From NCBI GenBank assembly GCA_002753565.1, contig PEAM01000023.1, positions 1 to 64,000 on the forward strand: a stretch of 64,000 nt of DNA. Direction: 5' to 3'. The notes below the pieces were generated by a model. That model was not told the origin of the DNA and did not search any database. It saw nothing but the letters and a program-made list of their open reading frames with translations. Positions 9,559-63,134 of the stretch are shown here, in pieces (positions within the stretch are counted from its first letter, which is position 1; every line of letters begins with the position of its first letter). The stretch comes from Magnetococcales bacterium (lineage in GTDB: Bacteria > Pseudomonadota > Magnetococcia > Magnetococcales > JADFYX01). The translations under genes and the position numbers were made by a program.

Positions 9559-9568
9559 GGTTCCTCCG

Positions 9569-10470: not shown

Positions 10471-10472
10471 TC

Positions 10473-21194: not shown

Positions 21195-21209
21195 ACGCCT
21201 TACCTCTGG

Positions 21210-21941: not shown

Positions 21942-22576
21942 GGCACCACATTGATGGCGACACAGTCGGTATTGGCGGGACAGCTGGCATCTGCAGCCAG
22001 CCTCTTCCAACCAAACCGTTGCCAGGAGACCCGAATGGTTTGTGCCGATGTGGCTGTACAGGGGGCAGGACAAGAGACGGCAATCTGTAAACCAGGCAGA
22101 CTCTGTCCCACACCGGTTGTCTGGTTGTTATATCCCCAGGCTTGGCAATAGACCTGAAAAGCATCAAATTCGGCCATCTGCGTGGCGTTGCAGGCTGTCC
22201 CGTTGATCACACCGCCCGCCGAATCCAGGTCATCACTACAGAGGGCTGTTGGAAAGGTGGTTGATATCAGCCCACCCAGGTTTTGGGTACAGTCGATCTC
22301 TGAATAGGAGAGAGGAGAGACGGTGCGTTGGGTTAAATCGTAGGATTGACTGATGGCCCCCTCAGGATTGGCGTGGAGACGTTCGGACAGCTCTTGAGCA
22401 ATGGAGGTGGCCTGACCTCGATAATAAGACTCCTGACTGCTCCTAAGCCCGTTCAACTGCAGAGACCCCAAGCCAAGCAGGCCAATGGAGAGAACCAGAA
22501 GCGCCACCAGGTTCTCTATCAGGGTAAAGCCGCTGGTTCCAGAGGAGAGGGGAAATCTTTTTCTTAGGGTGTACAT
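21938..22576 (-). CDS. pilV: Type IV minor pilin PilV
   Basis: A 212-residue protein with the prepilin signature SGFTLIENLVALLVLSIGLL, then GLGSLQLNGLRSSQ, which is characteristic of PilV. Glu is present at position 5 of the mature form. The globular part holds several cysteines. Its start overlaps the fimT end by 13 bases and its stop overlaps the pilW start, so translation of the operon is coupled. Confidence 0.85.
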   Translation of the reverse strand: MYTLRKRFPLSSGTSGFTLIENLVALLVLSIGLLGLGSLQLNGLRSSQESYYRGQATSIAQELSERLHANPEGAISQSYDLTQRTVSPLSYSEIDCTQNLGGLISTTFPTALCSDDLDSAGGVINGTACNATQMAEFDAFQVYCQAWGYNNQTTGVGQSLPGLQIAVSCPAPCTATSAQTIRVSWQRFGWKRLAADASCPANTDCVAINVVP

Positions 22577-23109
22577 GTCACCGCTCCGGTTGATGTGGAG
22601 AGACGACCGATGGCGCTGACAGTCAAGGTTCGAGCATCACTACCGGCGCCTCGATCATCACAAAAAACCAACGTCCCACTCTGCAAGCTGCCATCTACCT
22701 TCCGAATCAAGCCGTTAGCGTTGTAGGAGAGATAGTCTCGAACATGAGCACTCCCTCGAACGGTCACACCATTGGCCGTCGCACCGGCGTTGACCTGTAG
22801 CAGGGTATCGCCGGTGGTTTGGGTGCCCGAATCGTCCGCATCCACAAACACCGCCCAGCCCAGCTCCCACTGCCCGGTTGTCAGGCAGGTTGTTCCGCTG
22901 GCTGAGGGACAGAGAGTAATCCGAGCGGAACGGTTGATGGCCTCGCTGCGGGCATAGTTTGTCAGGCCGACAAAGTTATTAACCCGCACAACCATACGAC
23001 CATTTTTAATAATCTGGCTAAAGGTCGGCACAGCCAGTGTTAAAAGAACAAAGGCGATCGCCATCACAATCAGCAGCTCCAGCAAGGTATATCCCGAATT
23101 GTTCTTCAT
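22564..23109 (-). CDS. fimT: GspH/FimT-type minor pilin
   Basis: A 181-residue protein opening MKNNSGYTLLELLIVMAIAF, a short leader and prepilin motif with Glu5. The globular domain has the GspH/FimT pattern: NNFVGLTNYARSEAINRSARITLCPS, WELGWAVFVDADDSG and a late GTLVFCDDRG. It is the first gene of the fimT-pilVWX-pilY1-pilE operon. Related FimU and FimT proteins are minor pilins, some of which bind DNA; which of these it corresponds to cannot be settled from sequence. Confidence 0.85.
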   Translation of the reverse strand: MKNNSGYTLLELLIVMAIAFVLLTLAVPTFSQIIKNGRMVVRVNNFVGLTNYARSEAINRSARITLCPSASGTTCLTTGQWELGWAVFVDADDSGTQTTGDTLLQVNAGATANGVTVRGSAHVRDYLSYNANGLIRKVDGSLQSGTLVFCDDRGAGSDARTLTVSAIGRLSTSTGAVTCTP

Positions 23110-41503: not shown

Positions 41504-41695
41504 CTAGCCGCATTGATCGCCTTTTTTAACCCTTTCGGCCTTGCTGGGGCAGCCCTGACTGTTTCCCGCAGAACAGCCACAAGAGATCCCCTCCTTTTTT
41601 GAAAACAGCGCCCGGGCGCTCCGATAGATATACCAGAGACAAAACAGCAAGATCAGCCCAAGCACCCCCCCTTCAACCCAACCTACTTCGCTCAT
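41504..41695 (-). CDS. FeoB-associated cysteine-rich membrane protein
   Basis: The start at ATG 41695 overlaps the feoB stop (ATGA) and gives 63 residues; the frame extends upstream within feoB. One membrane helix (GGVLGLILLFCLWYIYRSA) is followed by a basic, cysteine-rich tail (ISCGCSAGNSQGCPSK ... GDQCG). This layout fits the FeoB-associated Cys-rich membrane proteins often found after feoB. The cysteines might bind iron or a cluster; the role in Fe(II) uptake is not established. Confidence 0.8.
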   Translation of the reverse strand: MSEVGWVEGGVLGLILLFCLWYIYRSARALFSKKEGISCGCSAGNSQGCPSKAERVKKGDQCG

Positions 41696-43842: not shown

Positions 43843-43892
43843 TTAGACTTTCAGGCGAGTGATACAATCAAGAAAGATGAAAATCTTGATCC

Positions 43893-44159
43893 CTATTCAT
43901 ATGAGACAATAATCTTTGATGCATCATCGTTGCGAATCGTCAGGCGGTACCCCAAAATAGAGTAGACACGAGGGTCTCCCATGGGGGCTTGGGTGTCCAA
44001 TGCGATCTCTTTTCCTCGGACAATGCCCAGAGCCATCAGGCGGCGCTTACTGACATCGTCTCCCTTCAATCCGACAATCCGAGCGGTCTTAAAGCCAACC
44101 AAATCGGCTAGAGTAATGGTCTTTTCCAAGATGTTCTCTTTCGACATGATGTTACCCAT
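43893..44159 (-). CDS. feoA: FeoA-type iron transport protein
   Basis: An 88-residue protein with an SH3-like fold: ITLADLVGFKTARIVGL, the RRLMALGIVRGKEIALD motif, then ILGYRLTIRNDDASKIIV. FeoA is a small cytoplasmic partner that modulates FeoB. It is the first gene of the operon. An internal start (MSKEN, 44147) could also be used, since the ribosome site is not clear. A Fur-box-like sequence lies just upstream. Confidence 0.9.
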   Translation of the reverse strand: MGNIMSKENILEKTITLADLVGFKTARIVGLKGDDVSKRRLMALGIVRGKEIALDTQAPMGDPRVYSILGYRLTIRNDDASKIIVSYE

Positions 44160-44467: not shown

Positions 44468-46954
44468 ATGGCTTTCGTTAACATAATGACTTTTTCCCCC
44501 GATCAATCTCAGACTATTCTGCTCTTGGATGCAGAACCGAAAGCGTTGAGGGATCAACTGGCAGAGGGGGGGGTTCAGGTGGTTGTCGCCCACAACTGCA
44601 CCGAAGCCATCGCCTTCCTCAATACCACCCCAATCGATCTTCTGCTGATAGGGGAGATTGGTAACGAGGACAGGCAAGAGAGAGAGAGACTCAGGCTCCA
44701 TCTGGCCACCAAAAAACAGTCCAAACAGGGCTGCTTTCCCCTCCTCGCTCTGGTGGCATCCGAAGAGGAGGCCCACCTCGAAACAGCTCTGACCCTTGGA
44801 GCCGACGACTATCTTCTCAGGCCGCCTTCGACCCTGAGCCTCAGCAGCCGGATTGGTTGGTTGATTCGGCTAAGAGGCCGTCTCTACTCCAAAACCACCC
44901 AACTACAGGGAGAAGCGGCCCTTCAAGCTGAATTCAAAAACATCAAGAGCGCTCTGCTGCAGACCTCTTTTTATGATCTCTCCCTGTTGGGCAACCCCCT
45001 GGAGGAGATACTTAAACTGGCCCTCAGCATTATTTTATCCGCCCCCCTTCTGCCCAAAAACCCCTCTGGCGCCATCTTTCTTGCCGATCGAGATGAGACC
45101 AAACTCCGCCTGGGGTGTCAGTTGGGTATCTCGGAAAAAATCGAGAGCAGTTGTGGAGAGGTTCTCAGGGGGAGCTGTCTTTGTGGTCAAGCCTTGATTG
45201 AGAAAAAAGTTCGATTTTATAGCCATGTTGATGACAACCACACCCTATCCTACCCCGGCATGGCTCCTCACGGTCACTATATTGTCCCCCTCCTCCACGA
45301 GGGGGGCCGTGTGCTTGGTGTGCTGAACATCTATCTGGAGACCGGACGCTCTCCCTCTCGGGAACTCGAACTGTTTTTAAGCGATATTGCTCTGATTCTG
45401 GCCATGACCATCAGCCGAAAATATTTTGAAAAACGTCTCATCGCCTCCGAGGTCCGGTTTAGCTCCATTGCCAACACCTCCAACGACGGCATCATCTCCA
45501 TCAACCAAGAAAACCGCATCACTTTCGCCAACCGGCGTGCCAACCAGATCTTCCAATATAAGGAAGGTGAACTGCTGGGGGAGTCTATTGAAAAGCTGAT
45601 CCCAAAAAAATATCATCTCCGCCACAAAGCCGGACTGAAAAAGGCCGCCACCTCTCAACAGCTCACCTTGGCGGGAAAAATCGTCGAGCTGAGCGGCATA
45701 CGCAAAAATGGTGAGGCGTTCCCCATGGAAATCTCCCACTCCATGTGGGTTTCGGAGGGAGAGCCCTCCTTTGCTGCCTTTATTCGAGATGTGACAGAAC
45801 GCAAGCAGACTGAGGAAAAAATGCGCCTTCAGTCCGCCTCCATGAACTCAGCAGCCAACAGCATCATGATCTCTGACATCCAGGGAACCATCCAGTGGGT
45901 CAACCCCGCCTTTGAGGCCCTGACCGGCTATTGCTTGGATGAGGTTGTCGGAAAAAAGGTCGACATTCTCAACTCTGACTACCACCCACCAGATTTTTTT
46001 TCGAGCATGTGGAAAACACTGCAAAAGGGGGAGATCTGGCAGGGACAACTCAGGAACAGAAAAAAAGATGGCTCACTCTTCTGGGAAGAGGCGACCATTA
46101 CCCCTATCCTGGACCAAGAGAACACCATCCAACACTTTCTCTCCATCACCGAAGATGTCACCAACCAAAAAGAGATCGACGAGACCTTATGGAAGGCCAA
46201 AGTGGCCTTGGAGGCCTCTCACGATCAACTGGCGAAGGTTAACGAACTGCTCCTGGAAGAGCGAAAGATTATCGAAAATGTGGTGTTGAAAATTCAACAC
46301 TCTCCTCTCTTCGACCCGACCGACCTGCGTATTCTGGAAAAACCGATGGAGAAAAACTCAGGGGATCTGATCTGTGCCGCCAAAAAAAGCAATGGGGCAC
46401 GCCGAGTGCTGTTGGGAGACTTTGCCGGCCACGGTCTGACTGCCGCCATTGCCGGCCCTCTCATCTCAGAAATATTCTATGCCATCGGCATGGACATGCC
46501 CATAGAAGAGATGTTCAGAACTCTGAATGTCCGCCTGCTACAGGCCCTGAACGAAGATATGTACATGACCTGCGGCTGTCTGGAGTTAAACGCCCAACGG
46601 GACCAGGTTACCCTGTTTAATGCCGGCATGGTCAACATCCTCATCCTCCGCGACGGAAAAATCATCCATAGAGAGCCGTCCCGTTTTGTACCCAGAGGGT
46701 TGATGGATGTGCCGGATCAAAAAAAAGCCCCTCTGCCCATCCAACCGGGGGACCGGATCATCCTCTGCACCGACGGCTTTGAGGAGGCCACCGATCCCAA
46801 CGGCAAAATGTTGGGCGAGGAGCGGTTTTGTCAGTTGCTGGAAACACTCATCGCCCAAAACAGACCACTGGAGAGTCTCATCCAGGAGCTGGAACAGTTC
46901 CGGCAAGGGGGAAAACAGGAGGATGACATGACCCTAGTGGAGTTGACTTGCTGA
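44468..46954 (+). CDS. SpoIIE-type phosphatase with pseudo-receiver, GAF and PAS domains
   Basis: An 828-residue protein. The N-terminal 130 residues have a receiver fold, but the acceptor position reads DLLLIGEIGNED with no Asp, and the Lys position is LLRPP. A GAF-like domain follows (GHYIVPLLHEGGRVLGVLNI), then two PAS domains (NTSNDGIISINQENRITFA; MISDIQGTIQWVNPAFEAL). The C-terminus is a SpoIIE/PP2C-type phosphatase (KNSGDLICAAK, LLGDFAGHGL, FNAGMVNILI, ILCTDGFEEATD). The STAS gene 79 bases downstream is the likely substrate. A second start at 44486 is possible. Confidence 0.85.
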   Translation: MAFVNIMTFSPDQSQTILLLDAEPKALRDQLAEGGVQVVVAHNCTEAIAFLNTTPIDLLLIGEIGNEDRQERERLRLHLATKKQSKQGCFPLLALVASEEEAHLETALTLGADDYLLRPPSTLSLSSRIGWLIRLRGRLYSKTTQLQGEAALQAEFKNIKSALLQTSFYDLSLLGNPLEEILKLALSIILSAPLLPKNPSGAIFLADRDETKLRLGCQLGISEKIESSCGEVLRGSCLCGQALIEKKVRFYSHVDDNHTLSYPGMAPHGHYIVPLLHEGGRVLGVLNIYLETGRSPSRELELFLSDIALILAMTISRKYFEKRLIASEVRFSSIANTSNDGIISINQENRITFANRRANQIFQYKEGELLGESIEKLIPKKYHLRHKAGLKKAATSQQLTLAGKIVELSGIRKNGEAFPMEISHSMWVSEGEPSFAAFIRDVTERKQTEEKMRLQSASMNSAANSIMISDIQGTIQWVNPAFEALTGYCLDEVVGKKVDILNSDYHPPDFFSSMWKTLQKGEIWQGQLRNRKKDGSLFWEEATITPILDQENTIQHFLSITEDVTNQKEIDETLWKAKVALEASHDQLAKVNELLLEERKIIENVVLKIQHSPLFDPTDLRILEKPMEKNSGDLICAAKKSNGARRVLLGDFAGHGLTAAIAGPLISEIFYAIGMDMPIEEMFRTLNVRLLQALNEDMYMTCGCLELNAQRDQVTLFNAGMVNILILRDGKIIHREPSRFVPRGLMDVPDQKKAPLPIQPGDRIILCTDGFEEATDPNGKMLGEERFCQLLETLIAQNRPLESLIQELEQFRQGGKQEDDMTLVELTC

Positions 46955-47033
46955 CCATTTCTGCTAGTCTGTCCCGGTGCGGTTGGATCAGGGAGCGCTT
47001 GCTCCTGTCTTTATTGATAATTGAGAGAAATGA

Positions 47034-47339
47034 ATGGCTAAGAGTGAACTGAAGGTTTTGCGCGAAGGGGACACCCTGATCTATCAGATTGGCGGAGCGT
47101 TTGACTATGCCTTGGTAAAATTATTCAAAAAAACCTATCAGGCGGAAGGGCAGGCCGGTCGCTATGTTCTCGATTTGGGCAAAACAGAAAAGATCGACAG
47201 CTCTGCCATTGGTGGCCTGATGTATTTTCACCATTTTGCCGGGGGGAAAGATGCCGACATCACCCTGACAAACGCCAGCCCCGAGATTAAACGACTCCTC
47301 AACATTGCCCAACTCCACCACGCTTTCCATATCGAATAG
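47034..47339 (+). CDS. STAS-domain anti-sigma factor antagonist
   Basis: A 101-residue STAS protein: TLIYQIGGAFDYALVKLF, then RYVLDLGKTEKIDSSAIGGL, where the serine in DSSAIGG aligns with the phosphorylated serine of SpoIIAA/RsbV. It follows the SpoIIE-type phosphatase in the same direction and is the probable phosphatase substrate. It is convergent with the anti-sigma-type ATPase gene, 15 bases away. Together these form a partner-switching module. The controlled sigma factor or effector is not in the window. Confidence 0.85.
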   Translation: MAKSELKVLREGDTLIYQIGGAFDYALVKLFKKTYQAEGQAGRYVLDLGKTEKIDSSAIGGLMYFHHFAGGKDADITLTNASPEIKRLLNIAQLHHAFHIE

Positions 47340-50306: not shown

Positions 50307-51092
50307 TCAACCCTGAATAATTTTTTCTGCCAGGGCTCTTTCAATCATGCGCCGGGTTTCAGAATGGTCCGGGCGAATTTTTGCAGCCTGGGTCCAGGCA
50401 TCGATGGCGGCGTCGAACTCACCCTTTTTGGCATGGGCCAACCCGAGAAAAAAGTGGAGGTTAAACCGTTTTTTATGGATCTTCGCCACCGGAGACATCA
50501 CCTTGATTGCCGCCGAGTATCGGCTGCTGTAAAGCAGCGCCTTTCCCAGCAGGGTAGCCACCCCGGCATCGAACGGGTGGGCCGATTTCAGATCGTAGAG
50601 CAGGGCGGTCGCCTCACTCAGTCGACCGGTACGGGCATAGGCCAAACTCAAATGGAGCTGACACTCCAGGTCAAAAGCCCCCAGATCGATGGCTCTCTCC
50701 AACGCTCTGACCGCCTCTTTGGGATACCCCCTGTTTAACAGCTCCCCTCCTACCCTTCTATAGTAGGTTGCACTGTGAGTTTTTTTGGGTTTCGAGGCAA
50801 AAAACAGCTTTCCAAACCATCCAGAAGCCTCTTTTCCCTGGCGAGGTGACGGGGTACGGTCTGGCTGGGTTGTTGTCTGCTTGGCAGAAGAGCGGCTTAG
50901 CTCTGATGGTTCAGGGAAGAGCGTATCGATCTCTCTGGCAGAGGGGCTATCTGAGGGGTTGGCTGATGTCAAAAAAGTGTGCCCGAATGGTGTCAAATCT
51001 TCTGAATCCAAACCACCATCCAGCGTTGAAAGCAAGGGAAAAGCAGGCTCGCTGATTGAGGCCTGATCGGCTGTTGCAACAAGTTGGCTCAT
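50307..51092 (-). CDS. TPR-repeat protein
   Basis: The start at ATG 51092 has GGAGGAGA upstream and gives 261 residues. The first 110 residues are low-complexity with many Ser, Pro and Thr. The C-terminal 150 residues hold about four tetratricopeptide repeats (LLNRGYPKEAVRALERAIDL; LSLAYARTGRLSEATALLYD; LGLAHAKKGEFDAAIDAWTQ). No signal peptide is seen, so it is probably cytoplasmic. TPR repeats mediate protein binding; the partner is unknown. Confidence 0.75.
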   Translation of the reverse strand: MSQLVATADQASISEPAFPLLSTLDGGLDSEDLTPFGHTFLTSANPSDSPSAREIDTLFPEPSELSRSSAKQTTTQPDRTPSPRQGKEASGWFGKLFFASKPKKTHSATYYRRVGGELLNRGYPKEAVRALERAIDLGAFDLECQLHLSLAYARTGRLSEATALLYDLKSAHPFDAGVATLLGKALLYSSRYSAAIKVMSPVAKIHKKRFNLHFFLGLAHAKKGEFDAAIDAWTQAAKIRPDHSETRRMIERALAEKIIQG

Positions 51093-51196
51093 TGTTTCTC
51101 TCCTCCAAGGGTTCCGCATATGACAGGATACTACCCTGGGTTACGCAAAATACAAGCCATTATTGAAAGAGAGGGCTTTGAGTGGTGGTGTCCACC

Positions 51197-52774
51197 CTAT
51201 CTTTGGAGTTCCACCCCCTGATCCAACATAACCTGAGCCGGTTTAAACCCTTGCTCTGCCGCCAACTCCAGCCAATAGACGGCCTCTTGCCTGTTGGGCG
51301 CAACCCCCTTGCCTTCCGCATACATCAACCCCATCAGATACTGTCCGTAAGCATGATTGTTGGCAGAGACCCTCTTTAGGTAGTCCATGGCAAGAGGATA
51401 GTTGGGGGGAACCCCATTGCCTTCGTAATAGATGATGCCCAGCTTGAGGTTGGTCCAGGCCAGAATTTGCGCAGAGAGGGGGTTGTCTGTGGATTCAGAT
51501 CCCGGCTCAACCACCTTCAGAAACCATTTCAGGGCCTCCTGATCGTTCTGTGGTGTCCCTTTACCATGCTGGTAGAGGGTCCCCAGGGTAAATTGGGCCC
51601 GCTTATCGCCCTGGTGTGCCGCCTGCTTGAACCAATAGAAGGCTTTGGTTGGTTGATAGCTCTCTTCTCCCCCATTTAAATAAAGATTCCCCAACACAAC
51701 CTGCGCTCGGGAATCCCCTCTCTCAGCCAATCTTCCGTAGGCAACAATCAACGGGTTTTTCTCGTTTTGTTCGTCAACACCCCCCTCATCCAGGATAGGC
51801 TGCTGAGCAGGAGCGATCCAAGAGGGTTGCGCCTGTGAAGCCTCCTGTTGAGGCTCGTCTTTTAACCGAGGCGGCGTTTGCGGTCCGTTAATAGAGGGGA
51901 CAGGCTCTCTTGGCAGGGGAGCGGTTAGGGGCAGAGCTACCCAGACGGGGATCACCCTCTGACGTGGCGAGGGGATGGGCGGTTCTAACGGGCTATTTTC
52001 CTGTTGAGACAATGCCTCTTCTTCAGAAAAGATCTCTTCTTGAGGGGATGTCACCTCAATAGCCCATCTGCCCACGGTTACCGTCTCTTCCAAAGCGTTG
52101 GAGCTGTTTGGGTCACCTTTCTGTCGTTGTCGGGGCGAGACCTGGGGCATGGCAACCAAAAGAGGAGCCTTTTTCTGAAAAGGCGTAGCCTGTGGGAGAG
52201 CCATGACAACGGGTTCCGCTTGCCTTAAGGGGATGGCTTGAGGAAGCGGAAAAGCAAGGAGTAAAATTTTGGGGCGTGGTACGGTCAGGGGTGGCTCAAC
52301 CTGAGGAGGCCTCTGTCGTGGTCGTGGTAAAAGAGAGGGGGAGTCGACCAGGGCCAGCACACTTTTTTTAAGAGGAAGAGTGACAGGAGGCGCCTGGAGG
52401 GTAGCCAGTTTTCTTTGAAGCGGGTGGGCGACTGGCAGGGCCATCTCGAAGGGAGGAACCTTCGGACGAGGGAGTATGGCTGGTGGCGAGACCAGAAGGG
52501 GATCTCCCCAGTTTTCTTGAGGTTTCTGTTGGGTCAGAGGCATCTGCTGGGGGGGATCGAGGGGAGAGATTTCCACTTGAACGGGGTTTCCACCCTGCTC
52601 GGGGAAAAGGGGGAAAAGGTAGTTTTCGAAGGTGGCCGGTTGAGCAACCACCCCCTGGTCATCCTCGCTCCCCAGCCGTTCTGGCTGCTGGGTTGTCTGA
52701 GCACTGGAATAGCCGGCAAGCCCGAAACAGGCTGCCAGGGAGAGTGCCGAGAGAGTTTTGGAAAAAAAGGTCAT
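51197..52774 (-). CDS. Secreted proline-rich protein with Sel1 repeats
   Basis: A 525-residue protein with a signal peptide (LSALSLAACFGLAGYSSAQ). Residues about 80-340 are proline-rich, with a recurring motif of the type AxPxxxPxQR (VALPVAHP-like, ALPQATPFQK, AMPQVSPRQR, ALPLTAPLPR). Residues about 355-520 carry four Sel1-like repeats (AQVVLGNLYLNGGEES, AQFTLGTLYQHGKGTP, LKLGIIYYEGNGVPPN, YLMGLMYAEGKGVAPN). Sel1 repeats usually mediate protein binding. A periplasmic scaffold is likely; no specific function is known. Confidence 0.75.
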   Translation of the reverse strand: MTFFSKTLSALSLAACFGLAGYSSAQTTQQPERLGSEDDQGVVAQPATFENYLFPLFPEQGGNPVQVEISPLDPPQQMPLTQQKPQENWGDPLLVSPPAILPRPKVPPFEMALPVAHPLQRKLATLQAPPVTLPLKKSVLALVDSPSLLPRPRQRPPQVEPPLTVPRPKILLLAFPLPQAIPLRQAEPVVMALPQATPFQKKAPLLVAMPQVSPRQRQKGDPNSSNALEETVTVGRWAIEVTSPQEEIFSEEEALSQQENSPLEPPIPSPRQRVIPVWVALPLTAPLPREPVPSINGPQTPPRLKDEPQQEASQAQPSWIAPAQQPILDEGGVDEQNEKNPLIVAYGRLAERGDSRAQVVLGNLYLNGGEESYQPTKAFYWFKQAAHQGDKRAQFTLGTLYQHGKGTPQNDQEALKWFLKVVEPGSESTDNPLSAQILAWTNLKLGIIYYEGNGVPPNYPLAMDYLKRVSANNHAYGQYLMGLMYAEGKGVAPNRQEAVYWLELAAEQGFKPAQVMLDQGVELQR

Positions 52775-53007: not shown

Positions 53008-53316
53008 ATGGCAATTGATTTTGAACGAGCCGGTGACACCATTACCATCCGAATCCAGGGTGAGTTCGGTCACGAGTATCGCAATGATTTCCAGAAGATT
53101 TTTACCTCTCAAGAGGGAGACCCCCACGGCCATCACTATCGGATCGATTTTAAGGAGATCAAGTACATATCCAGCGCCGGTGCGGGACTGTTGATCCGTC
53201 TGCGGGACTATTGTGGTGGAGAAAAAGCCAACATATCCCTCATTAATGTGAATGACAGGACACTTAAATTGTTGAGAATTCTCAATTTTGACAAAATTTT
53301 TCAGATAACGCAATAG
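53008..53316 (+). CDS. STAS-domain protein
   Basis: A 102-residue protein with AGAGAG before the ATG. It has a STAS fold (TITIRIQGEFGHEYRNDF, then YRIDFKEIKYISSAGAGLL), with a serine pair in SSAGAG at the position of the phosphoserine. It resembles the STAS protein at 47034-47339 and may share the same phosphatase and ATPase. It precedes the stator-like locus by 250 bases, so coupling of that locus to partner switching is conceivable but unproven. Confidence 0.8.
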   Translation: MAIDFERAGDTITIRIQGEFGHEYRNDFQKIFTSQEGDPHGHHYRIDFKEIKYISSAGAGLLIRLRDYCGGEKANISLINVNDRTLKLLRILNFDKIFQITQ

Positions 53317-53566: not shown

Positions 53567-56500
53567 ATGGAAGAAGGCGGCTCAGATTCCAACGTCCTTT
53601 TTCAGAACTATGGGGGCATTGTCGACTCTTTCTTTGCGGATAGCAAGGAGGCTGGGGACCCCATAGCTATCGTTCCACCCTCCAAACGCCCCATCCGAGA
53701 ACCCGCCGAACAACAAAAAAAACCACTCTACGAATTTCCCCTCGAAAATAGCGAGGCCGAGGCCGATTACGGGCAGCCCACGACAGACGATAAAGAGCCC
53801 CCCATCCTAGAGGGTTCTGCCGAGGCATCAAAAAAAAACGCCTCTCTTATCATGCAGTTTGTCCCCAAGGACGCCTACAAGAAAACCCAGGAGATGGTGG
53901 ACTCCTTCCGGCGTATTTTACGGAAAAAACCCAGCACCATACTAAACCGCAACCAAAAAGAGGGGAGTGAGGAGGAGCAGCTTCTCTTCTCCTATTTAAA
54001 AGATTTTCGTCGCTCGTTACACACGGGGGAAGAGGCCCTTTTAGAGACCAACCCGTTTTACGAGTTGGCCAAACAGATCTACAAGCTCAGCCTGGATGGT
54101 ATCAGCAACGCGTTTCAAGACCTCCATAAAAATGCCGCCGATGCCCTGCCCAAGCCGATTCCTGTCTCCGAAAGCCTGCGCTCCATCTGGAGACGGTCCG
54201 GACCCGGTCGCGGCCTGCTGGATAAGATTGCCGAGACGTTTGGCAAAGGGATGGCGTTTGGTCGAACCCCCTTCTCCCTCCTGTTGTTTGCCGGCTCCAC
54301 CTATACCACCGCCCGAGGTGTCAACGATCTCCTTCAGATGTCGGAGGTGGCGGGATTTTTCGGGGAGATGTTTGATGGCCGTTCCGGGGAAGGCAACCGC
54401 TACATGGTCTGTCTGGCCAGCGGCCTGATTCTCTCCTCTGCCATTCTGGACTATAAAACCAAAATTTTTCAATCCATTGTCGAGTCAGGTTCCGTGTTGT
54501 CGGGTATTCGGGACGCTTTTTTGCGCAGCCCCCGCTGGATGATCATCGCCTCCCTGCTGACCTTTGTCTCCATCAAAACCAATTACGACGGCATTGTCTC
54601 CATTATCTCCAAAAAGGAGGATCTGGCCCAGCAATCCTTACTGATCACCTCGCGGGTTCGCAAGGCGTTGGGAAGCCCTTTCTTCATGAACCCGCTCGAG
54701 CCGGACTCTCTCTTCGATCTGCAGGGGCTGTTCCAGCAGACCACCAAAGAGATGATGGAGGTTTTTCTGGCGCTTCCCGAGGATGAGGTCAAGGGGGTAG
54801 CATCCAGTGGTGACCCGCGCAAAGGGCCACGCTATTGGGCGAAACATTTTATTGTTCATGGCGGTTATGAGGAGGGGATAAACGATGTCAAACTCTCCTA
54901 TAACAACCAGCTCTTCGCCCAACGCATCGACGACATGCTTAAAAATTCCGGGATTGATTTCAGCAGCTCCTACTCGCAAAAAGTGGAGTCGCTACGAAAC
55001 ACCTACGAAAACCACCTGCGTGAAACCGACGAGTTGGTTCGCAAACGGTTGGGTGAGTTGAATGTGCTCATGAGCATGGGCGGCTACTCCCTGGATGAGA
55101 TCAAACGGGTTCTCGCCATCGAGCATTACCAGATCAACGATATTGTCGAGATCGTTGTCTCCGCCCTGGAGGCCAACAAACAGGCCTATAAAGAGATCTC
55201 GGAAGATCTGGGTGAGTTGACAAAAAGTTATGTGGATATTCTCCAGCAGGTGGATAAATCCGGCACATCGGGGTTGAGTGCCTATCACATTAAAGCCGAT
55301 GTGGTGGTACCGAAGATTGAGGCGATCGATCAACTTCGGGCTGGAAAAATTCCCATCGCCAAACACAAAAATTTTGCTGAGCTAAGAGCCTCTCTGATGC
55401 AGCGTTACGGGGTGAGCCTGGGGAGCATGCTGCTGGCGGCCATTCTCTTTTTCTCCATCAGCATGGATCTGGGCGACCCGATCGTCTTCAGCCGGATGAC
55501 GGCACGACGAGGCAAGAAAGATCGGGTCTTTTTCAAGGACAGGCTGGAAAAGCTCAAGGTTTGGGAGGAGTTTTTCTTTCAGAGATCCGAGGTCTTTTTC
55601 CAGGAACCCGATGTCCGAGCGGTTTTCATGGACACCCAGTCTCCTGGGGATACCATGATTCGCAACGCCTTTTATAAGCTCTTGGAAGAGATCAACCCAG
55701 AGCTGCGCGATACAAAAGATAAATCGCTCTACCTGCGATTTGATCACTGGTTTCGGGGCATGTTCCGATTTAGCCGCACCACCGATATGGCCGGGCTGAA
55801 CAATCGGCTGAAGACGATTCAACACATCATCAAAAAACGGAACCGCTATTTTCAACAATGGGGGGTGTTGATCTATCCCGATTTTCAGGTCGACAAGAGC
55901 TTCTCCAAATGTACCTTCCAGGAGTGGCAAGAGAGAGCAAAAACCCTCTTGAACGAGCGGCGCGTCTCCTTCTATCAGGAGTTGCGAGATGCGGTTCAAG
56001 AACATACCAACCCCCTGTCCGAGCTACCGAAAGATCTCTCTCCGGCACAAAAAAGGTTGACCTCCTGGACCGACAAAAAGGGGATGGGGCTGCTTGCCAA
56101 GCTGCTGGCCTGGAGCCAAAGATCGTGGACGCTTCTTTTCGAAACCAGCTTCAAAGAGCCGATTCCCGAGTTTAGCTACACCCGACGGGGATGGCTGCAA
56201 GACTTCTCTGAGAACAGTCTGGAGTCTGAAAAAATTGTCGAGTCCATCTATGGCTTCATTCCTGACCTGAAAAAGGTGGTCTTTGAGACTCTACCCTCCA
56301 TTCAGGAGGAGTATCTGGAGCCGGTTCTGGATTTCCTTTCCCGCTATCCGGGTTATGAGTCCTCCAACGATTTTCTCAACAGAGAATCGCTGCAAAAACA
56401 GTTTGACGAGATTGAAAAAGAGGCTTTGGATCTTTGGGGGGTCTCTTTTTTCGCCTCGGACGATCCAGGGGGATATCTGGGGTTATCCTCCATTATCGGG

Positions 56501-57532
56501 CAGGAGGAGCTCTCCAACCTCCAGGAGATTGTCGAGAAGACCGGAACCGATTCGGTTGTTTTCTCCAGGAAGGTGAGTGAGCTGGCCCACTCCATGAAGC
56601 GGGCCCATCAATTTGTCACCACCGCTGAAGAGATGAACAGACTGTTTTCGGAGGTGCGGACCTATTGTGTGGCCATCAACCAATCTCTGATGAAAATCAA
56701 AATGCGTGCCTGGGAGTATCGGGGCAGTGGCGGGGTGGGTGATGGCTTCCTGGATACAGCCCGAGATCTTCAGCATCATGCGCCCAAAGAGGCCGACAGC
56801 ATTCTCTCTGTGATGGAGGCCATTTTACAGTCTGAAGAACCCTATACCCGAACCAACCTGATGACGTTGCGAGATCTTAAACAGAACGCCAGTGACCTTC
56901 AAGATCGGATTATGGCTTTTGTCGACTTTGGAACAGGGGATGACGATGACCAGTCAGCCCCCTCCTCCTATCCCTCTGCCGGGCAGCAGGAGTACTCAAG
57001 CCAAGGGTCGTCAAACTACGATGAAAACGACCATCAAGAGGAGGAGGATTTTGATTATTCCCTCCCTCCTGGTGGAGCCTCAAAGGGTAGCGAAACCCAG
57101 AGAAAAGAGTCTGCATCCAGGTGGGCAGAACAGGAGAAAATGGCCCACCATGAAGTGCCTTTCGCCAACCACCACGCCTCCTCTTCAAGAGAGCTGGGCG
57201 ACGAGTTAGAGGCAACCTCAGGGGGTGAAGACAATTTCTACCAGGAGCAGCCATTCCAGCAAATTGGTGCACTCTACGAGACAAGACGGGGTGTCATTTA
57301 CCAAGGAGAGGCAGAACAGATCAGCTTGAGTGGACTGGAGTTCAACTCGACCACAGACCCTTCCATGTTGCCGATTGGCAATGAGGGCACCGTTCAGTTG
57401 ACCGTCGGTGAGGATGCCTATCAATTTATCGGGAAGGTGGTTCGGGTTTCCGGCTCCTTGATCATCATCCGCATTCTCCATGATCAAGAGCAGTTCGAGG
57501 CCTTTGTCCAACAACTGGTCAAGGGTGCATGA
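53567..57532 (+). CDS. Giant membrane protein with C-terminal PilZ-like domain
   Basis: A 1321-residue protein of no recognised full-length family. Residues 1-200 are charged. Membrane helices are predicted near 242-260 (FSLLLFAGSTYTTARG), 285-300 (YMVCLASGLILSSAIL), 325-343 (WMIIASLLTFVSIKT) and 622-645 (LGSMLLAAILFFSISMDLG), with a long helical domain between the third and fourth. After a low-complexity acidic linker, residues 1235-1320 resemble PilZ: ETRRGVIYQGEAEQISLSGL, where the D/NxSxxG motif has Gln. The ZorA-like gene follows 135 bases later. A role as a c-di-GMP-linked partner of a stator complex is inference. Confidence 0.7.
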   Translation: MEEGGSDSNVLFQNYGGIVDSFFADSKEAGDPIAIVPPSKRPIREPAEQQKKPLYEFPLENSEAEADYGQPTTDDKEPPILEGSAEASKKNASLIMQFVPKDAYKKTQEMVDSFRRILRKKPSTILNRNQKEGSEEEQLLFSYLKDFRRSLHTGEEALLETNPFYELAKQIYKLSLDGISNAFQDLHKNAADALPKPIPVSESLRSIWRRSGPGRGLLDKIAETFGKGMAFGRTPFSLLLFAGSTYTTARGVNDLLQMSEVAGFFGEMFDGRSGEGNRYMVCLASGLILSSAILDYKTKIFQSIVESGSVLSGIRDAFLRSPRWMIIASLLTFVSIKTNYDGIVSIISKKEDLAQQSLLITSRVRKALGSPFFMNPLEPDSLFDLQGLFQQTTKEMMEVFLALPEDEVKGVASSGDPRKGPRYWAKHFIVHGGYEEGINDVKLSYNNQLFAQRIDDMLKNSGIDFSSSYSQKVESLRNTYENHLRETDELVRKRLGELNVLMSMGGYSLDEIKRVLAIEHYQINDIVEIVVSALEANKQAYKEISEDLGELTKSYVDILQQVDKSGTSGLSAYHIKADVVVPKIEAIDQLRAGKIPIAKHKNFAELRASLMQRYGVSLGSMLLAAILFFSISMDLGDPIVFSRMTARRGKKDRVFFKDRLEKLKVWEEFFFQRSEVFFQEPDVRAVFMDTQSPGDTMIRNAFYKLLEEINPELRDTKDKSLYLRFDHWFRGMFRFSRTTDMAGLNNRLKTIQHIIKKRNRYFQQWGVLIYPDFQVDKSFSKCTFQEWQERAKTLLNERRVSFYQELRDAVQEHTNPLSELPKDLSPAQKRLTSWTDKKGMGLLAKLLAWSQRSWTLLFETSFKEPIPEFSYTRRGWLQDFSENSLESEKIVESIYGFIPDLKKVVFETLPSIQEEYLEPVLDFLSRYPGYESSNDFLNRESLQKQFDEIEKEALDLWGVSFFASDDPGGYLGLSSIIGQEELSNLQEIVEKTGTDSVVFSRKVSELAHSMKRAHQFVTTAEEMNRLFSEVRTYCVAINQSLMKIKMRAWEYRGSGGVGDGFLDTARDLQHHAPKEADSILSVMEAILQSEEPYTRTNLMTLRDLKQNASDLQDRIMAFVDFGTGDDDDQSAPSSYPSAGQQEYSSQGSSNYDENDHQEEEDFDYSLPPGGASKGSETQRKESASRWAEQEKMAHHEVPFANHHASSSRELGDELEATSGGEDNFYQEQPFQQIGALYETRRGVIYQGEAEQISLSGLEFNSTTDPSMLPIGNEGTVQLTVGEDAYQFIGKVVRVSGSLIIIRILHDQEQFEAFVQQLVKGA

Positions 57533-57667
57533 CAGTGACCAACCTCTCTTTTGGGTTGGCAAGAGAGTAGAATGGGTCGGCTTCATGCTGACAGCTATCA
57601 CTTACAACTTTTTTATTCAATGGGTCGAATTCAGACCTGAGATAATCAAAGAATGGAGGGGCCGTAG

Positions 57668-60600
57668 ATGGTTGACTGGACATTCAATTTAATCAGCCAC
57701 CCGCTGCTGCCTTGGGCATCAGCCGGCTTGATTGTCCTCTGGGGTTTACTCTCTTGGCTCTCCTTTCGCTCCAAGGTGGTTCAGGTCTATTATGCGCTGG
57801 AGGATGCCTCGCGCATTGTCGAGACCACCCAGGGACAAGAAGATTTTTCCGACCATTTTGAGAAGATCGATCAAAGTCTCACCTTGATGAAAGGCTTTGG
57901 GGTGTTCTGGAGCGGCTTCAGAGGCACGTTGCTCCACTCTCCTGGTCAGCAACGGGTGTTGGGGAGTCAGCCACCCAAAGCGTATTTCAACTTTAATTCC
58001 CTGGTCATGTATCAGGTGGATTTTCAACACTACCGATCCCTGCCGGTCTATCTGATCGGGGGCGGCCTTCTATTTACCTTTATCGGCTTTTCTTCGGCAC
58101 TATATTATACCTACCAGGGGCTCTCCTCTCCTGATCTAGAGACAGTCAAGGGGGCGCTGAACGGTATTTTCAGCACCGCTGCTGTCAAATTTTCCGCCTC
58201 TATCGCCGGCCTGTTAACCGGCCTGATCTTCTCTCGAATAGAGAAGGCCTATACGCATAATCTGGAGCGAAAAATTGTCCAGTTTTGCGGTTTGATCTCA
58301 GATCGAGTTGAGTGGACGGCAGAGGAGAATATTTTTTCTGACCAGACGGCAGAAATGAACACCCTCCCCTCAGGTGCTGCTGGCAAACCTTCCAAAAACT
58401 CCTCTCTTCCCCAGGATCTTATGGACCGACTCACTGCCGAGATGAGTCAGGCCACCAACCAGATGGAAGACCAGGTTGTCCGGGCTGTTCAAGAGAGCCT
58501 GAAACCACTGATTGAAGGGCTGCACCAAGCGGGTGAAGAGCGGTCTGTCCAACATGAGACCCGTTTGGAAGAGATCCTTAAGCGGGGAGAAGAGCGGCTC
58601 CTCACCCTGGAACCGCAAAACAGGGGGGATGAAACCGTGGCGGCGCTGGTTGCCCAGATGGAGCAAAAACTTAACGACCCAGCCTTTACCGAGCCGCTGC
58701 TCTCGACTGTAAGAGAGGAGGTTCGCCAGATTCAAGAACAGATTCGGGCGGCCTCTTTTCTGGAGCCGTTGATCTCTGCCCTTCATAATCGAGAGGCCAA
58801 ACAAGGGGATAGTGACAAGGAGACCATCCCTAAACAACAGGCTGATCTCAGCCAGTTGCTGCAGAATCAGGCATTCCTGAAACCGTTGCTGCTTCAAGTT
58901 CGTGAGGAGATGGAGCGGGTGACTGAGGGGCTTGGAGCATCTCCCGATCTGGAGCCGGCAATCAACGCGCTCAAAACAGAAATCGCTACTCAGGGAGCCG
59001 CCCAACAACAGTGGTTGGAACAGCGGTTGATGGCGGTTACACCACCCCGGTTGAGTCCAGATGAGCAGGTTGCAGATGGGGATGACAGCGATAACAGAAG
59101 CGAAGCTTCAGGGGTTGTTCAAGCTGAAGTTTCCCGTTTTATCCAAGAGGGAACCGAGGCCATAGAGAAGGCGGTTGCCGGGCTATCCACCCCCCCACAA
59201 ACCTCTTGGGTGGCAGAGGAGCTTCTTCAGCCCCTGCGCGAGGCGGTGAGAGAGTCTGTGGTTGAGGTGGCAGACACCCTCTCTCTGTCCTCGGTCATCC
59301 AGACCATTCAGGAGGGCAACAGCCTGCTGACTCAGGGACAGTTGGAAATGGTGGCGGCCCTGGATCAAGAGTCGAAAACCTGGCGGGAGCAGCTTGACCG
59401 TTCAGTCGATTCCATCCTGGAACGGCTGGGGGATCGGCTGCAGGCAGAGGAGGATATCACCCCTGTTGTAGCCGCGGTTGATCGGGCTGGAGAGCGGCTT
59501 GTGGCACGGCTCTCCTTGGAACCCCTGTTGGCGGCGGTTCACTCCGAGGGTGAGCGCACCACGCAGAGCCTTCAATCGGTGGTGGAGACCTTTGCCAGCA
59601 GTCGGGATCTGGCGGTAAGGGAAGCGGTCTCTCAGGTGAAAGATCACATTCAGACCCTCCTCTCAGAGGGGATCTCCACCGAGTTGGCTCGGGGTGGCTG
59701 TGAAACCACCGAGATCATCGATGAGTTGACTGCATTGATTCTGGCTGAAACAGCCCAACTTACCCAGTCGAGTCAGAAGGTTCAGAATGCTCTATTGGCT
59801 CTTCAAGAAGAGCAGCAGGTCAGCCTCCAGCAGGTGACCGATGGGCTGGATGGTCTCACCCATCGCCTGGATACCATAGCCCAACAGATCGACACCCCCT
59901 CGGTAGAGGCGTTGGTGGCGGCTATTCGGGATGAGATAGGACGCTATGCCGAAGGACAAAAACAGAGCTTGGCTCCCCGCCAACCCGCTCAATCCAGTCA
60001 ACAGGCGCGCTCCTCTGGGGTTTTCGTTGGGCAAAACGGGCTGAAGCTCCCTGCCCATCTTCTTATTTCACCCGCCTCCATCGATGGCATGTCTTCGGCG
60101 GCCCGCAGATACCTGCACCCCAACGGGCAGGAGGGGGGAGAGGTAGTGCCTGTGGGTCCGGTTTTGCGTGCCGGCAGCCCAAAAGCAAAGGACTTTATAC
60201 AACTGCTCACCGACCTTTCCCAACAGCTTCGAGATTTTGTTGATCTGGATACCCAATCTCTGGAGCAGAGTGTGGATGATCTACTTCAGCAGCTCAAAGG
60301 GGGGGCCAATCGAGCAGACCTTCCGCTGGTGTTGGAGTTGGGACGGTTGGGAGAAGAGATCGGCTCTTTGGATCTCTCTGAAATAGATGAGGGGACGCTG
60401 AGTGATCTGGATGGGATTTTAATGGGGTTGGCGCTCTTCCTTAAAAGCAATGTTGATGCGTGGCTTGATGAGGAGAGAGCGCCTAACCCTTCCCTGCCTG
60501 ACTCGCTGGACGAGACAGAGCCCAGCCAGCAGGTTCAGGAGATGAGAAAGCTGTTCGACGCCTTCGAGGCTCAGAAAACACGGCAACTCAGGGACCACAG

Positions 60601-60865
60601 CACCCCGGCCCACGTAGCCAGCAAGCCGAATAGCCCCATTGAAAAAAGCCTCTCCCAACCATACCCTTCCAAGAAGGGAGAAGATCCCTTGGAAAAAACC
60701 TCTCCTGGTCTTCAAAGAGAGGGGCGTGGGTTTCAGCCTGAAGAGGAGATTGTCGATATGGGGGGGTTGTTGGACTCTTTCGTTAAGGGAAAAGGGCCGC
60801 GTTCACGCCAAACGCAACAGAGTCGTCGGCCCCTCTCCTCTAACACGATCGATAGAACCTCTTGA
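57668..60865 (+). CDS. ZorA/MotA/ExbB-like channel subunit with long tail
   Basis: A 1065-residue protein. Three membrane helices lie at about 13-33 (LPWASAGLIVLWGLLSWLSF), 125-147 (PVYLIGGGLLFTFIGFSSAL) and 167-188 (IFSTAAVKFSASIAGLLTGL), the order and motifs of MotA/TolQ/ExbB and, most closely, of ZorA. The remaining 850 residues form a helical, probably coiled-coil cytoplasmic tail with repeats such as FTEPLLSTVREEVRQIQEQI and FLKPLLLQVREEMERV. The tail is a ZorA hallmark. The ribosome site GGAGGGG precedes the ATG. The ZorB-like gene begins 20 bases after its stop. Confidence 0.75.
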   Translation: MVDWTFNLISHPLLPWASAGLIVLWGLLSWLSFRSKVVQVYYALEDASRIVETTQGQEDFSDHFEKIDQSLTLMKGFGVFWSGFRGTLLHSPGQQRVLGSQPPKAYFNFNSLVMYQVDFQHYRSLPVYLIGGGLLFTFIGFSSALYYTYQGLSSPDLETVKGALNGIFSTAAVKFSASIAGLLTGLIFSRIEKAYTHNLERKIVQFCGLISDRVEWTAEENIFSDQTAEMNTLPSGAAGKPSKNSSLPQDLMDRLTAEMSQATNQMEDQVVRAVQESLKPLIEGLHQAGEERSVQHETRLEEILKRGEERLLTLEPQNRGDETVAALVAQMEQKLNDPAFTEPLLSTVREEVRQIQEQIRAASFLEPLISALHNREAKQGDSDKETIPKQQADLSQLLQNQAFLKPLLLQVREEMERVTEGLGASPDLEPAINALKTEIATQGAAQQQWLEQRLMAVTPPRLSPDEQVADGDDSDNRSEASGVVQAEVSRFIQEGTEAIEKAVAGLSTPPQTSWVAEELLQPLREAVRESVVEVADTLSLSSVIQTIQEGNSLLTQGQLEMVAALDQESKTWREQLDRSVDSILERLGDRLQAEEDITPVVAAVDRAGERLVARLSLEPLLAAVHSEGERTTQSLQSVVETFASSRDLAVREAVSQVKDHIQTLLSEGISTELARGGCETTEIIDELTALILAETAQLTQSSQKVQNALLALQEEQQVSLQQVTDGLDGLTHRLDTIAQQIDTPSVEALVAAIRDEIGRYAEGQKQSLAPRQPAQSSQQARSSGVFVGQNGLKLPAHLLISPASIDGMSSAARRYLHPNGQEGGEVVPVGPVLRAGSPKAKDFIQLLTDLSQQLRDFVDLDTQSLEQSVDDLLQQLKGGANRADLPLVLELGRLGEEIGSLDLSEIDEGTLSDLDGILMGLALFLKSNVDAWLDEERAPNPSLPDSLDETEPSQQVQEMRKLFDAFEAQKTRQLRDHSTPAHVASKPNSPIEKSLSQPYPSKKGEDPLEKTSPGLQREGRGFQPEEEIVDMGGLLDSFVKGKGPRSRQTQQSRRPLSSNTIDRTS

Positions 60866-60885
60866 AGGATGGGGGGCTTGGTACC

Positions 60886-62121
60886 ATGAGACTCTCGGAA
60901 AATACAGTCCCCATCGTCATGATTGAGCTGATTGTCGGCCTGGTCTTCCTGTTGGTCATTCTTGTCTCGGCCTCGTTGGTCAAGGATCGGATTGTCTCCC
61001 TCTCCCACGAACCGGAAAAAACCTTGGTGACGCCTCCTCCATCAGAGTCACAATCGAGGGCTGAGACCCTCCTGATGCCAACCTTGGCAGCCTTGGAAAA
61101 CAAGGTGGATAGCCTCTCTCAGGAGGAGAGCCAACCAGCCCAGCCACTTAGAGGCAGACCGCCCAACAAAATTGAAGGGCTGCTGGAACGTCATGTCGAG
61201 AAGATTGTACCCCGGTTTGAAGCGCTCAACAAAAAAATGGATGCCCTTCTTGTCGACCAAGAGGCGATCATGGTCAAAAAGCTGGCGGAGCTGGATAGTC
61301 GGATTGAGTCGTTAAAGCTGAAAGAGCGTGACACAGCATCACCCCTGTTGGGCGAATTGAGCCAAAAGGCCGAAACCCTCTCCTATGAGCATGATACCGT
61401 TATTGCACCAACCCTTAAGGCCTTGAACGAAAAGGTCGATCTTCTGTTGGGAGAGGAAGGGAGCGTCTCCCCCTCCTCCTTTGACAGGGCAGCCTCACCT
61501 GCTGAAGAGAGCGCTCGCCACGCCCCTTCTCTGGCAGTGCCGACTCCCAGACCACGGGCTATCTTGGCTGTGGAGCCTTCTGCCGAGCCATCAGGCGTAC
61601 CGGGGATTACCAAGATCCTGCAGCAACTACAGACGATTCTTTCCCAATACGGCATTGTCGCCACCCTCCACTCTGACCGTAACGCCATGGGGTTGCCACA
61701 AATATTTGACTTTGAGCGCGGTTCCTCTACTCTATCAGAGCGGCAGTTGACAGCCTTTGCCAGGCTATCACAAGCCCTTGGGGCTGTTCTGCCTTGTTAT
61801 GCCAATCTGGCTGAAAGGGGCCTGCTGGAGCGCTGTTCCCATGCTCCAGATTCGGTTAAGTTGGATACGGTTTTTATTAAAGGTTTTGCCGCCGGGGATA
61901 CGGTTGGGACTGAGCGTTTCAGTTATAACTGGCGTCTGGCCAATGGTCGTTCCATTCAAGTTCTCAAAGCTCTGCTTATCGCTCAGCCAAATCTGGTCAT
62001 GCTGACCAATCCAGAGGGCGCTTCTCTGTTTGAGGCGATTGGAGAACATACCGATGCCCAGAGGGGCCGCTCTCGGCGGGTCGAGTTGCAGTTTTCCATC
62101 GCCAAGCCAGAGGATGGATAA
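60886..62121 (+). CDS. ZorB/MotB-like subunit with OmpA-like domain
   Basis: The start at ATG 60886 (after GGGGGG) gives 411 residues; a TTG at 60862 is an alternative. One membrane helix (VPIVMIELIVGLVFLLVIL) has Glu14 where MotB, ExbD and ZorB have the ion-carrying Asp. A coiled-coil region with five 22-residue repeats follows (PTLAALENKVDSL, PRFEALNKKMDALL, KLAELDSRIESLK, PLLGELSQKAETL, PTLKALNEKVDLL). The C-terminal 150 residues are OmpA/MotB-like (LDTVFIKGFAAGDTVG, WRLANGRSIQVLKAL, RGRSRRVELQF) and could bind peptidoglycan. Confidence 0.75.
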   Translation: MRLSENTVPIVMIELIVGLVFLLVILVSASLVKDRIVSLSHEPEKTLVTPPPSESQSRAETLLMPTLAALENKVDSLSQEESQPAQPLRGRPPNKIEGLLERHVEKIVPRFEALNKKMDALLVDQEAIMVKKLAELDSRIESLKLKERDTASPLLGELSQKAETLSYEHDTVIAPTLKALNEKVDLLLGEEGSVSPSSFDRAASPAEESARHAPSLAVPTPRPRAILAVEPSAEPSGVPGITKILQQLQTILSQYGIVATLHSDRNAMGLPQIFDFERGSSTLSERQLTAFARLSQALGAVLPCYANLAERGLLERCSHAPDSVKLDTVFIKGFAAGDTVGTERFSYNWRLANGRSIQVLKALLIAQPNLVMLTNPEGASLFEAIGEHTDAQRGRSRRVELQFSIAKPEDG

Positions 62122-62177
62122 GGGGAATGACGGGGATTTTTTTTGTTGTTTTAGCGAGAGGATTTGTCGAATCAACC

Positions 62178-63134
62178 ATGAAAAAGCCTAGATTTTTCAT
62201 CCTGAGGGCACTCCTTCCTGTTCTGCTTTGGCCTCTTCTGATTGGAGAGGTTTCGGCCTACTATGAGCGGGAAGCCGCCATTTTGGAGGAGCTGCGCACG
62301 GCGGTTGATCGCTATGGAGCCAAAGACTTCAACACCGTCACACACCGACTGGAGTTGGCCAACTTTTATCTCTCCAAAAAAGAGTATTTTAAAGCGGAGC
62401 CTCTTTTTCATCAATCTCTGGGGATTATGGAGAAGCGCTGGGGTCGGGACAGCGCCAAGCTACTGCCCATTATCGAAAACCTGGCAGCCCTCGATCTACG
62501 CCAGCGACGCTTCTCTTTTGCCTTGGCTCTGTACAATCGGGCCATCCTGATTGCCAAACGACACTATGGCAGCCGAGGGGCTGAGACACAGAAATTCAAC
62601 GATGCTCTATCCGAAACCAGACGAGCGGAGCGGGAGTGGAAGCGGTATGGTAGTCGCTCGGTCCCAGTTGTCGCCGCACCTCAAATAGAGGCCGATTCCG
62701 GCCAAAATGAGCGTGTCTTGAAAAGAGCTGTGGTTACCAACAGACACAAGGAGCCCGTCAAGAGCCAGAATCTGGCCCCCAGCCAAACCTCGGCGACCAC
62801 CAACAAAGCGGCTTCACCTTCAACCTCCACCAAAAGAACCGCCTCGTTTGCCCGTTATCTGGATGCTGAGGGGGTTCCCAGAGAGCCACCGGCGGAAGAA
62901 AAACAAGGTTTTTTTATCTCCATGGGCTGCTTTTCCGACAAGCCTTTTGCATTGGGGCAGGTTAACCGGGTTATGAACATCCCTCTGCCTGTCTATATGA
63001 AGAGCATCCGTAACAATCAACTTCACTGTGTGTTTGGCGGTCCCTTTGCAACCGAGAGAGAGGCTCAGGAGGGGGCGGAGCAATCTCGTCGTCAAGCCCG
63101 CGTGAGCGACACCTCGGTTCGTCAGTATAAATAG
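62178..63134 (+). CDS. Secreted TPR protein with SPOR-like domain
   Basis: The start at ATG 62178 opens a signal peptide (KKPRFFILRALLPVLLWPLL, cleaved near VSA/YY) and gives 318 residues; the frame extends upstream to 62127 without support. Residues about 45-155 form TPR-like repeats (RLELANFYLSKKEYFKAEPL, FSFALALYNRAILIAKRHYG). After a Ser/Thr-rich linker the C-terminus is SPOR-like (GFFISMGCFSDKPFALGQV ... HCVFGGPFATEREAQEGAE). SPOR domains bind denuded peptidoglycan. It closely follows the ZorB-like gene, so it may anchor that complex in the cell wall. Confidence 0.7.
   Translation: MKKPRFFILRALLPVLLWPLLIGEVSAYYEREAAILEELRTAVDRYGAKDFNTVTHRLELANFYLSKKEYFKAEPLFHQSLGIMEKRWGRDSAKLLPIIENLAALDLRQRRFSFALALYNRAILIAKRHYGSRGAETQKFNDALSETRRAEREWKRYGSRSVPVVAAPQIEADSGQNERVLKRAVVTNRHKEPVKSQNLAPSQTSATTNKAASPSTSTKRTASFARYLDAEGVPREPPAEEKQGFFISMGCFSDKPFALGQVNRVMNIPLPVYMKSIRNNQLHCVFGGPFATEREAQEGAEQSRRQARVSDTSVRQYK

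Follow-up and report, generated by a model that had tools for sequence, protein, structure and literature searches.

What does a pair of ZorAB-like membrane subunits do in a locus that carries none of the Zorya effectors? The question is raised by four consecutive open reading frames (ORFs) on the + strand of contig PEAM01000023.1 of a Magnetococcales bacterium, within its first 64,000 nucleotides, the whole stretch analysed here and called the window. They encode gene A (53567..57532, 1321 aa), a helical membrane protein with a degenerate C-terminal PilZ-like domain; ZA (57668..60865, 1065 aa), a subunit of the ZorA/MotA superfamily; ZB (60862..62121, 419 aa), a ZorB/MotB-like subunit; and SP (62127..63134, 335 aa), a TPR protein that is exported and whose C-terminus holds a diverged SPOR-like domain. 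The intergenic gaps are 135 bp between A and ZA, -4 bp between ZA and ZB and 5 bp between ZB and SP, and ZB probably starts at the ATG at 60886 instead of at 60862. An original prediction, made from the sequence alone, had described these genes as an undescribed stator-like locus, and both their existence and their positions hold.

The ZorA and ZorB subunits of Zorya assemble in a 5:2 ratio, and defence depends on the tail of the complex, on peptidoglycan binding and on ion flow alike (PMC11890865). Here, we report a strong genomic link between ZA/ZB and the magnetosome genes, and we propose that these relatives of the ZorAB motor probably help to anchor, move or sense the magnetosome chain.

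ZA and ZB are channel subunits of the ZorAB kind

ZA consists of a channel domain with three transmembrane (TM) helices (aa 1-235), followed by a largely helical cytoplasmic tail of ~830 aa. The ZorA-like and ZorB-like subunits of the original prediction were both borne out by the PADLOC models, ZA matching ZorA1 with E=1.4e-27 and ZB matching ZorB1 with E=2.6e-23. With the NCBIfam ZorA models, ZA reached 88.8 bits, well under the cut-off of 190. A profile of the ZA channel domain built from 29 relatives retrieved the solved ZorA chains of the PDB at 9e-24, and when an AlphaFold2 model of residues 1-420 (predicted local distance difference test, pLDDT, 78.6) was compared using Foldseek, the top six structures were all ZorA (E 9e-9 to 7e-6), with ExbB and TolQ ranking after them. 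Taken together, the profile, PDB-profile and Foldseek results indicate that ZA has the MotA-superfamily fold, as had been expected, and that ZorA is its nearest kind. Residues W81, P126, G133, T137, F175 and G181 of ZA are near-invariant.

ZB has one TM helix, a helical linker and an OmpA/MotB-like peptidoglycan-binding C-terminus, and carries a Glu at the ion-carrier position of the TM helix (IVMIELIVG). It matches the MotB-related PDB entry 8vvn (1.6e-4), and its profile matches are OmpA, MotB and ZorB, not ExbD. MotAB, ExbBD and TolQR share the superfamily fold and the two-subunit design with ZA/ZB; however, ZA has no match to the Pfam MotA_ExbB family (PF01618) at E<1, and no flagellar, ton or tol genes were seen nearby. 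The five PF01618 (MotA/ExbB/TolQ) matches of the genome lie on other contigs, all without mamK, and homologues were not accompanied by ordinary exbBD or flagellar genes. An identity of ZA/ZB as ExbBD, TolQR or MotAB is ruled out by the profiles.

By sequence and fold, the closest known structures are those of Zorya type I ZorAB, with which the pair shares a ring subunit of the MotA/ExbB superfamily bearing a helical tail, and a one-TM partner with a TM acid and an OmpA-like domain. It differs from Zorya type I in having no ZorC or ZorD, and in its tails, which are different and often much longer.

The locus adjoins magnetosome genes

The host genome comprises 3.87 Mb on 92 contigs. Gene A was found at 40 loci in a scan of 84,980 species, and since all of these are in Magnetococcales, the host belongs to this order of magnetotactic cocci. 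The contig of the window runs 7.5 kb further past the window end, and SP is followed first by a gene of 594 aa and mamK, then by small Mms/MamD-like genes and mamD, with mamK beginning about 2.5 kb beyond SP (526 bits for mamK, cut-off 400; 250 bits for mamD, cut-off 100). The absence of Zorya effectors after the ZorB-like gene, claimed earlier, is therefore confirmed by the genes that come next. The description as an undescribed stator-like locus stands for the homology and gene content, whereas the magnetosome-cluster setting had been missed because the mam genes begin just past the window end. SP and the 594 aa gene are 723 bp apart, and 55 bp separate the latter from mamK, so that mamK may be in a transcription unit separate from the locus.

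A second pair, ZA2-ZB2, paralogous to the first, lies on contig C88, upstream of a 435 aa gene and the second mamK of the genome and with mamD flanking; a third copy of mamK belongs to the main mamAB cluster on contig C10. The 594 aa gene matched nothing in Pfam or NCBIfam, and the 435 aa gene nothing in Pfam. A low-complexity gene precedes each of the three mamK genes of this genome (G000:C86 63857-65641, L018:1388-2695 and L042:12449-13288); possibly these encode MamJ-like or Maq1-like adaptors.

ZA, ZB and gene A thus resemble the known magnetosome genes of Magnetococcia (mamAB, mamK, mamD) in lying in or beside the cluster. None of the three is described as a magnetosome gene in the literature found, and no paper that connects magnetosomes with MotA and TolQ, or magnetotactic bacteria with Zorya, turned up in a literature coverage that is incomplete. 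In the UR-1 genome paper, MotB-like and EH-signature genes near mamD are given as of unknown function, and the relevant passages make no connection to Zorya (PMC6783814). According to the same paper and PMC10653835, mamJ and mamY are missing in Magnetococcia, which leaves the attachment and positioning of the chain unexplained in this class.

Linkage to magnetosome genes across Magnetococcales

About 80 loci were mapped in six frames. In the relative with a single 4,719,581-bp contig, which we take to be Magnetococcus marinus MC-1, the order on one strand is mamK-M-O-P-A-Q-B-S-T-ZA-ZB-193 aa-A. ZA/ZB follow mamT in MC-1 and in G025, G021, G013, G012, G015, G027 and G011; they lie beside mamD/H/E in G007, G028, G024, G010, G030, G017, G036, G038 and G005, and near mamK in the genome of the window and in G001, G003, G004, G002, G024, G028, G030, G034 and G041. 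Several genomes have ZA/ZB on the same strand as mamT or mamK. The congener G003 carries mamQ-B-S-T, then mamD, A, ZB, SP and the mamK-preceding gene, with no ZA there. Congener A-ZB blocks with no ZA between A and ZB were also seen at L060, L062 and L061, and in the ZB of L061 a Gln replaces the TM acid.

Within single fetched stretches, ZA lies within 12 kb of a mam gene in 30 of 44 genomes. With same-contig coordinates added (G002, G007, G008, G023, G029 at 14 kb, G035 and G044), a magnetosome gene lies within 15 kb of ZA in 37 of the 44 genomes and in 12 of 14 families. This linkage occurs in several arrangements and for three separate ZorA clades. The binomial probability is vanishing even at a generous chance level of 10-20% per genome, a figure which is only a guide because the genomes are related. 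A ZorA-like domain is present in 47/48 Magnetococcales genomes versus 22/351 others in the phylum; this near-universal occurrence in one order, linked to mam genes and gene A, is unlike the patchy distribution of Zorya.

Separation of the Magnetococcales loci from Zorya

Outside the order, 12 of the 15 fetched ZA homologues have ZorD beside them and are ordinary Zorya. Within the order, ZorD is found beside six ZorA genes away from mam genes (the true Zorya of L079, L090 and L205-L208, elsewhere in genomes) and beside none of the cluster-linked ones. A search of all loci for ZorC and ZorD, together with PADLOC effector profiles run on the window locus, matched no effector convincingly at the locus. 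Filing the locus as a Zorya subtype was rejected, because effectors are absent and the genes are universal in Magnetococcales.

In the tree, the Magnetococcales sequences form three clades: alpha (36 rows, including the ZA of the window, support 100/98), beta (11 rows, 100/98) and gamma (11 rows, 100/99). ZorD-linked Zorya lie on both sides of the deepest split of the tree as drawn, and the alpha clade holds only Magnetococcales in the sample used. ORF lengths are 630-787 aa for ZorD-linked ZorAs and 1157-1603 aa for beta, and reach 4073 aa in alpha and 2865 aa in gamma. The longest ZorA-like open frames, of 4073-4577 aa, were seen in L019:7778-19999, G004, G022 and G029. With duplicates removed by hand, the TM acid of ZB is Asp in 12/12 ZorD-linked ZorBs, in all nine readable beta ZBs (9/9) and in 9 gamma ZBs. 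Most alpha ZBs differ from Zorya type I in having Glu for Asp at this position (Glu in 18 of 26, Asp in five, and no acid in three, with Thr, Gly and Gln).

Beta loci encode a ZorC-like protein in which the EH-signature half is kept and the C-terminus is Hpt-like (8/11 loci, the rest being cut by the fetched stretch). The acceptor His of the Hpt-like domain is lost in L045, L047, L082 and L094 and kept in few members, and a phosphorelay through Hpt in the beta type is mostly not supported. The order ZorA-ZorB-ZorC with no ZorD, mostly by mamD/mamH or in a mam cluster, was seen at L045:17234-18526, L053:2228-3571, L081, L082, L094 and L187, and the beta-type loci are an unusual Zorya relative in their own right. 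Gamma loci consist of ZA3, an HDOD protein and a MotB-like ZB3, the HDOD gene lying between the other two; members are L169 (G000:C83), L170 (MC-1) and L171-L177. In genus g7, the gamma ZA3 directly follows a further mamK, and for the gamma loci of this genome and of MC-1, no mam gene was present within the fetched stretch.

Gene A and SP

Gene A had been described as a multi-pass protein with a PilZ-like end. By hydropathy, it has one strongly hydrophobic helix at aa 615-640 and weaker TM candidates before it, so a membrane helix is retained and more than one pass is uncertain. The PilZ domain reached 34 bits in the MC-1 homologue, against no more than 15 bits for the copy in the window (cut-off 22.5), which indicates that the homology is real and upholds the PilZ-like end, weak as it is in the window copy. 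When the motif for binding of cyclic di-GMP (c-di-GMP) was scanned as RxxxR...[D/N]xSxxG, it was present in 17 of 60 gene A homologues (MC-1 and 16 others), many of the others being truncated sequences. It is degenerate in the gene A of the window and was not found across the genus of the window by the pattern scan. A tie to c-di-GMP, suggested originally, is plausible for the gene A family, but c-di-GMP control of the window copy is not supported. The gene A core (aa 100-780) was modelled as all-helical (pLDDT 81.6) and gave no fold match against PDB and viral structures.

SP had been called a TPR-SPOR protein. The TPR part stands, with a TPR_12 match at 7.7e-8, whereas Pfam detected no SPOR domain in the window copy; among SP homologues, SPOR is over the cut-off in two only (L024 and L030). 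SP adjoins ZB in relatives.

Proposed function and alternatives

The reading that we favour, at about even confidence, is that the locus is a domesticated ZorAB motor serving the magnetosome/MamK apparatus, where it would anchor or move the chain. Judging from homology and fold, the two subunits ZA and ZB most likely assemble into an inner-membrane channel of the usual 5:2 composition, with the OmpA-like domain predicted to anchor ZB to peptidoglycan. Ions passing the membrane acid, which is Glu here and Asp in Zorya, would drive rotation or switching of the ZA ring together with its long helical tail. In Zorya, nucleases are recruited by that tail; here, where there is no nuclease, its probable target is the magnetosome chain or the MamK filament. 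The complex would serve to anchor or position the chain with respect to the envelope or to pull on it, or would at least link the two. Likely partners or regulators are gene A, many members of which have PilZ, SP with its TPR and SPOR-like parts, and the gene that precedes mamK. We infer this mechanical role on the chain and rank it first in view of the nearby mamK and the length of the tails. It is like the proposed role of MamJ, MamY and McaA/B, MamK partners elsewhere, in linking chain, filament and envelope, but these are not ion-channel proteins, a difference drawn from their descriptions and not from sequence. As for the distinct ion-driven envelope machine of the original prediction, the ZorAB homology and the lack of effectors are borne out, and we infer the ion drive itself.

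A conserved candidate motor of the ion-channel type in or beside the magnetosome cluster, repeatedly by mamK, provides named candidate genes for the placement of the chain in Magnetococcia. A broader suggestion is that ZorAB serves as a general transducer module for which defence is only one use, and that a single bacterial organelle may combine an actin filament with an ion-driven stator. More tentatively, this might be the first ion-driven motor known to act on a bacterial organelle: a complex of the ZorAB type, anchored to peptidoglycan, with a tail of hundreds to thousands of residues that exerts force on the MamK filament and the chain or reads force from them. Recruitment from Zorya-like ancestors would then have happened repeatedly (alpha, beta and gamma).

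Several observations weigh against a motor for the chain. The tie of ZA/ZB to MamK and magnetosomes is genomic, not physical or genetic, and the genomes are all of one order, many of them being metagenome-assembled. Three other magnetotactic genomes (G122, G152 and G290) have MamB and no ZA, so magnetosomes do not generally need ZA. Gene order is variable: G001 and G003 have the A-ZB-SP block without ZA between A and ZB, and A also directly neighbours ZB in G004. Extra copies of gene A occur away from ZA in several genomes, many of these paralogues being distant from both ZA and mam genes, and no mam gene is in reach of ZA in G016, G018, G019, G026, G032, G033 and G040, in several cases on a short contig. 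The alpha clade also includes ZAs of only 476-581 aa. Finally, the three alpha ZBs with no acid at the TM position (L034, L035 and L061) indicate that ion drive is not universal.

We place sensing second, since each of the three Magnetococcales types has signalling-type domains where Zorya has the nuclease. It is possible, though doubtful, that the complex is a sensor and not a mover, which would sense force from the chain or the state of the envelope or ion gradient and signal via the tail to partners (the PilZ of gene A, the Hpt-like tail of the beta ZorC and the gamma HDOD protein), tuning flagellar behaviour. The intact PilZ motif of MC-1 and others, the Hpt-like C-terminus of the ZorC-like protein and the HDOD protein encoded between ZA3 and ZB3 would all fit such a relay; moreover, a role in sensing and relaying has already been proposed for ZorAB (PMC11890865), and a force-sensing hypothesis involving MamK and a methyl-accepting chemotaxis protein exists for AMB-1 (PMC7175107). 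However, the PilZ motif is degenerate in the very genus of the window, few Hpt-like domains keep the acceptor His, and no receiver, CheA or flagellar gene is consistently adjacent.

It is unlikely that the locus is an envelope or surface machine that happens to be sited in the magnetosome island but is functionally unconnected with magnetosomes. The gene A paralogues, the ZA genes away from mam genes and the gamma type of this genome and MC-1 are what such a machine would leave, and SP and ZB act in the periplasm; but a linkage that extends over most genomes and families, in several arrangements and for three ZorA clades, argues for more than a shared address, as do the lack of ZA in the three other magnetotactic genomes and the restriction of gene A to this lineage. 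That the locus is a new anti-phage subtype of Zorya lodged in the magnetosome island, a role which the original prediction had allowed, is now very improbable: its closest relatives are ZorA and ZorB and the beta type retains half of ZorC, but no ZorD, ZorE or ZorFG is present, its occurrence is not patchy, true Zorya with ZorD is separate in the same order, and its partner gene A is order-specific.

Other features of the window

Two genes on the - strand lie upstream of the locus. A Sel1-repeat exported protein (51197..52774) is divergent to the locus, and both this genome and G003 have a ~49% identical relative, likewise divergent, beside the paralogous ZA2 in the neighbourhood of mamD. Next to it, a MamA-like TPR protein of the magnetosome family (50307..51119) matched NCBIfam MamA at 87.5 bits (8.2e-25), below the cut-off of 200. 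On the + strand, a STAS-domain protein (53008..53316) is encoded directly upstream of gene A; its membership in the system is uncertain, and STAS ORFs of a similar kind are also present near gene A in L078, L066 and L070. A SpoIIE phosphatase with PAS/GAF domains, followed by a STAS-like protein, is encoded at 44468-47339 (+), and these two could possibly form a partner-switching module with the second STAS gene at 53008-53316. Near the magnetosome region, FeoB (confirmed by Pfam) and a small FeoA-like ORF occupy 41692-44159 (-). Further away, an integrase, a Toprim-domain primase-like protein and a ClpP-like protease at 8245-14963 (-) probably belong to an integrated element, and a giant PilY1-like protein with a VWA domain, with prepilin-like genes on both sides (15454-23109, -), marks a minor-pilin operon of type IV pili.
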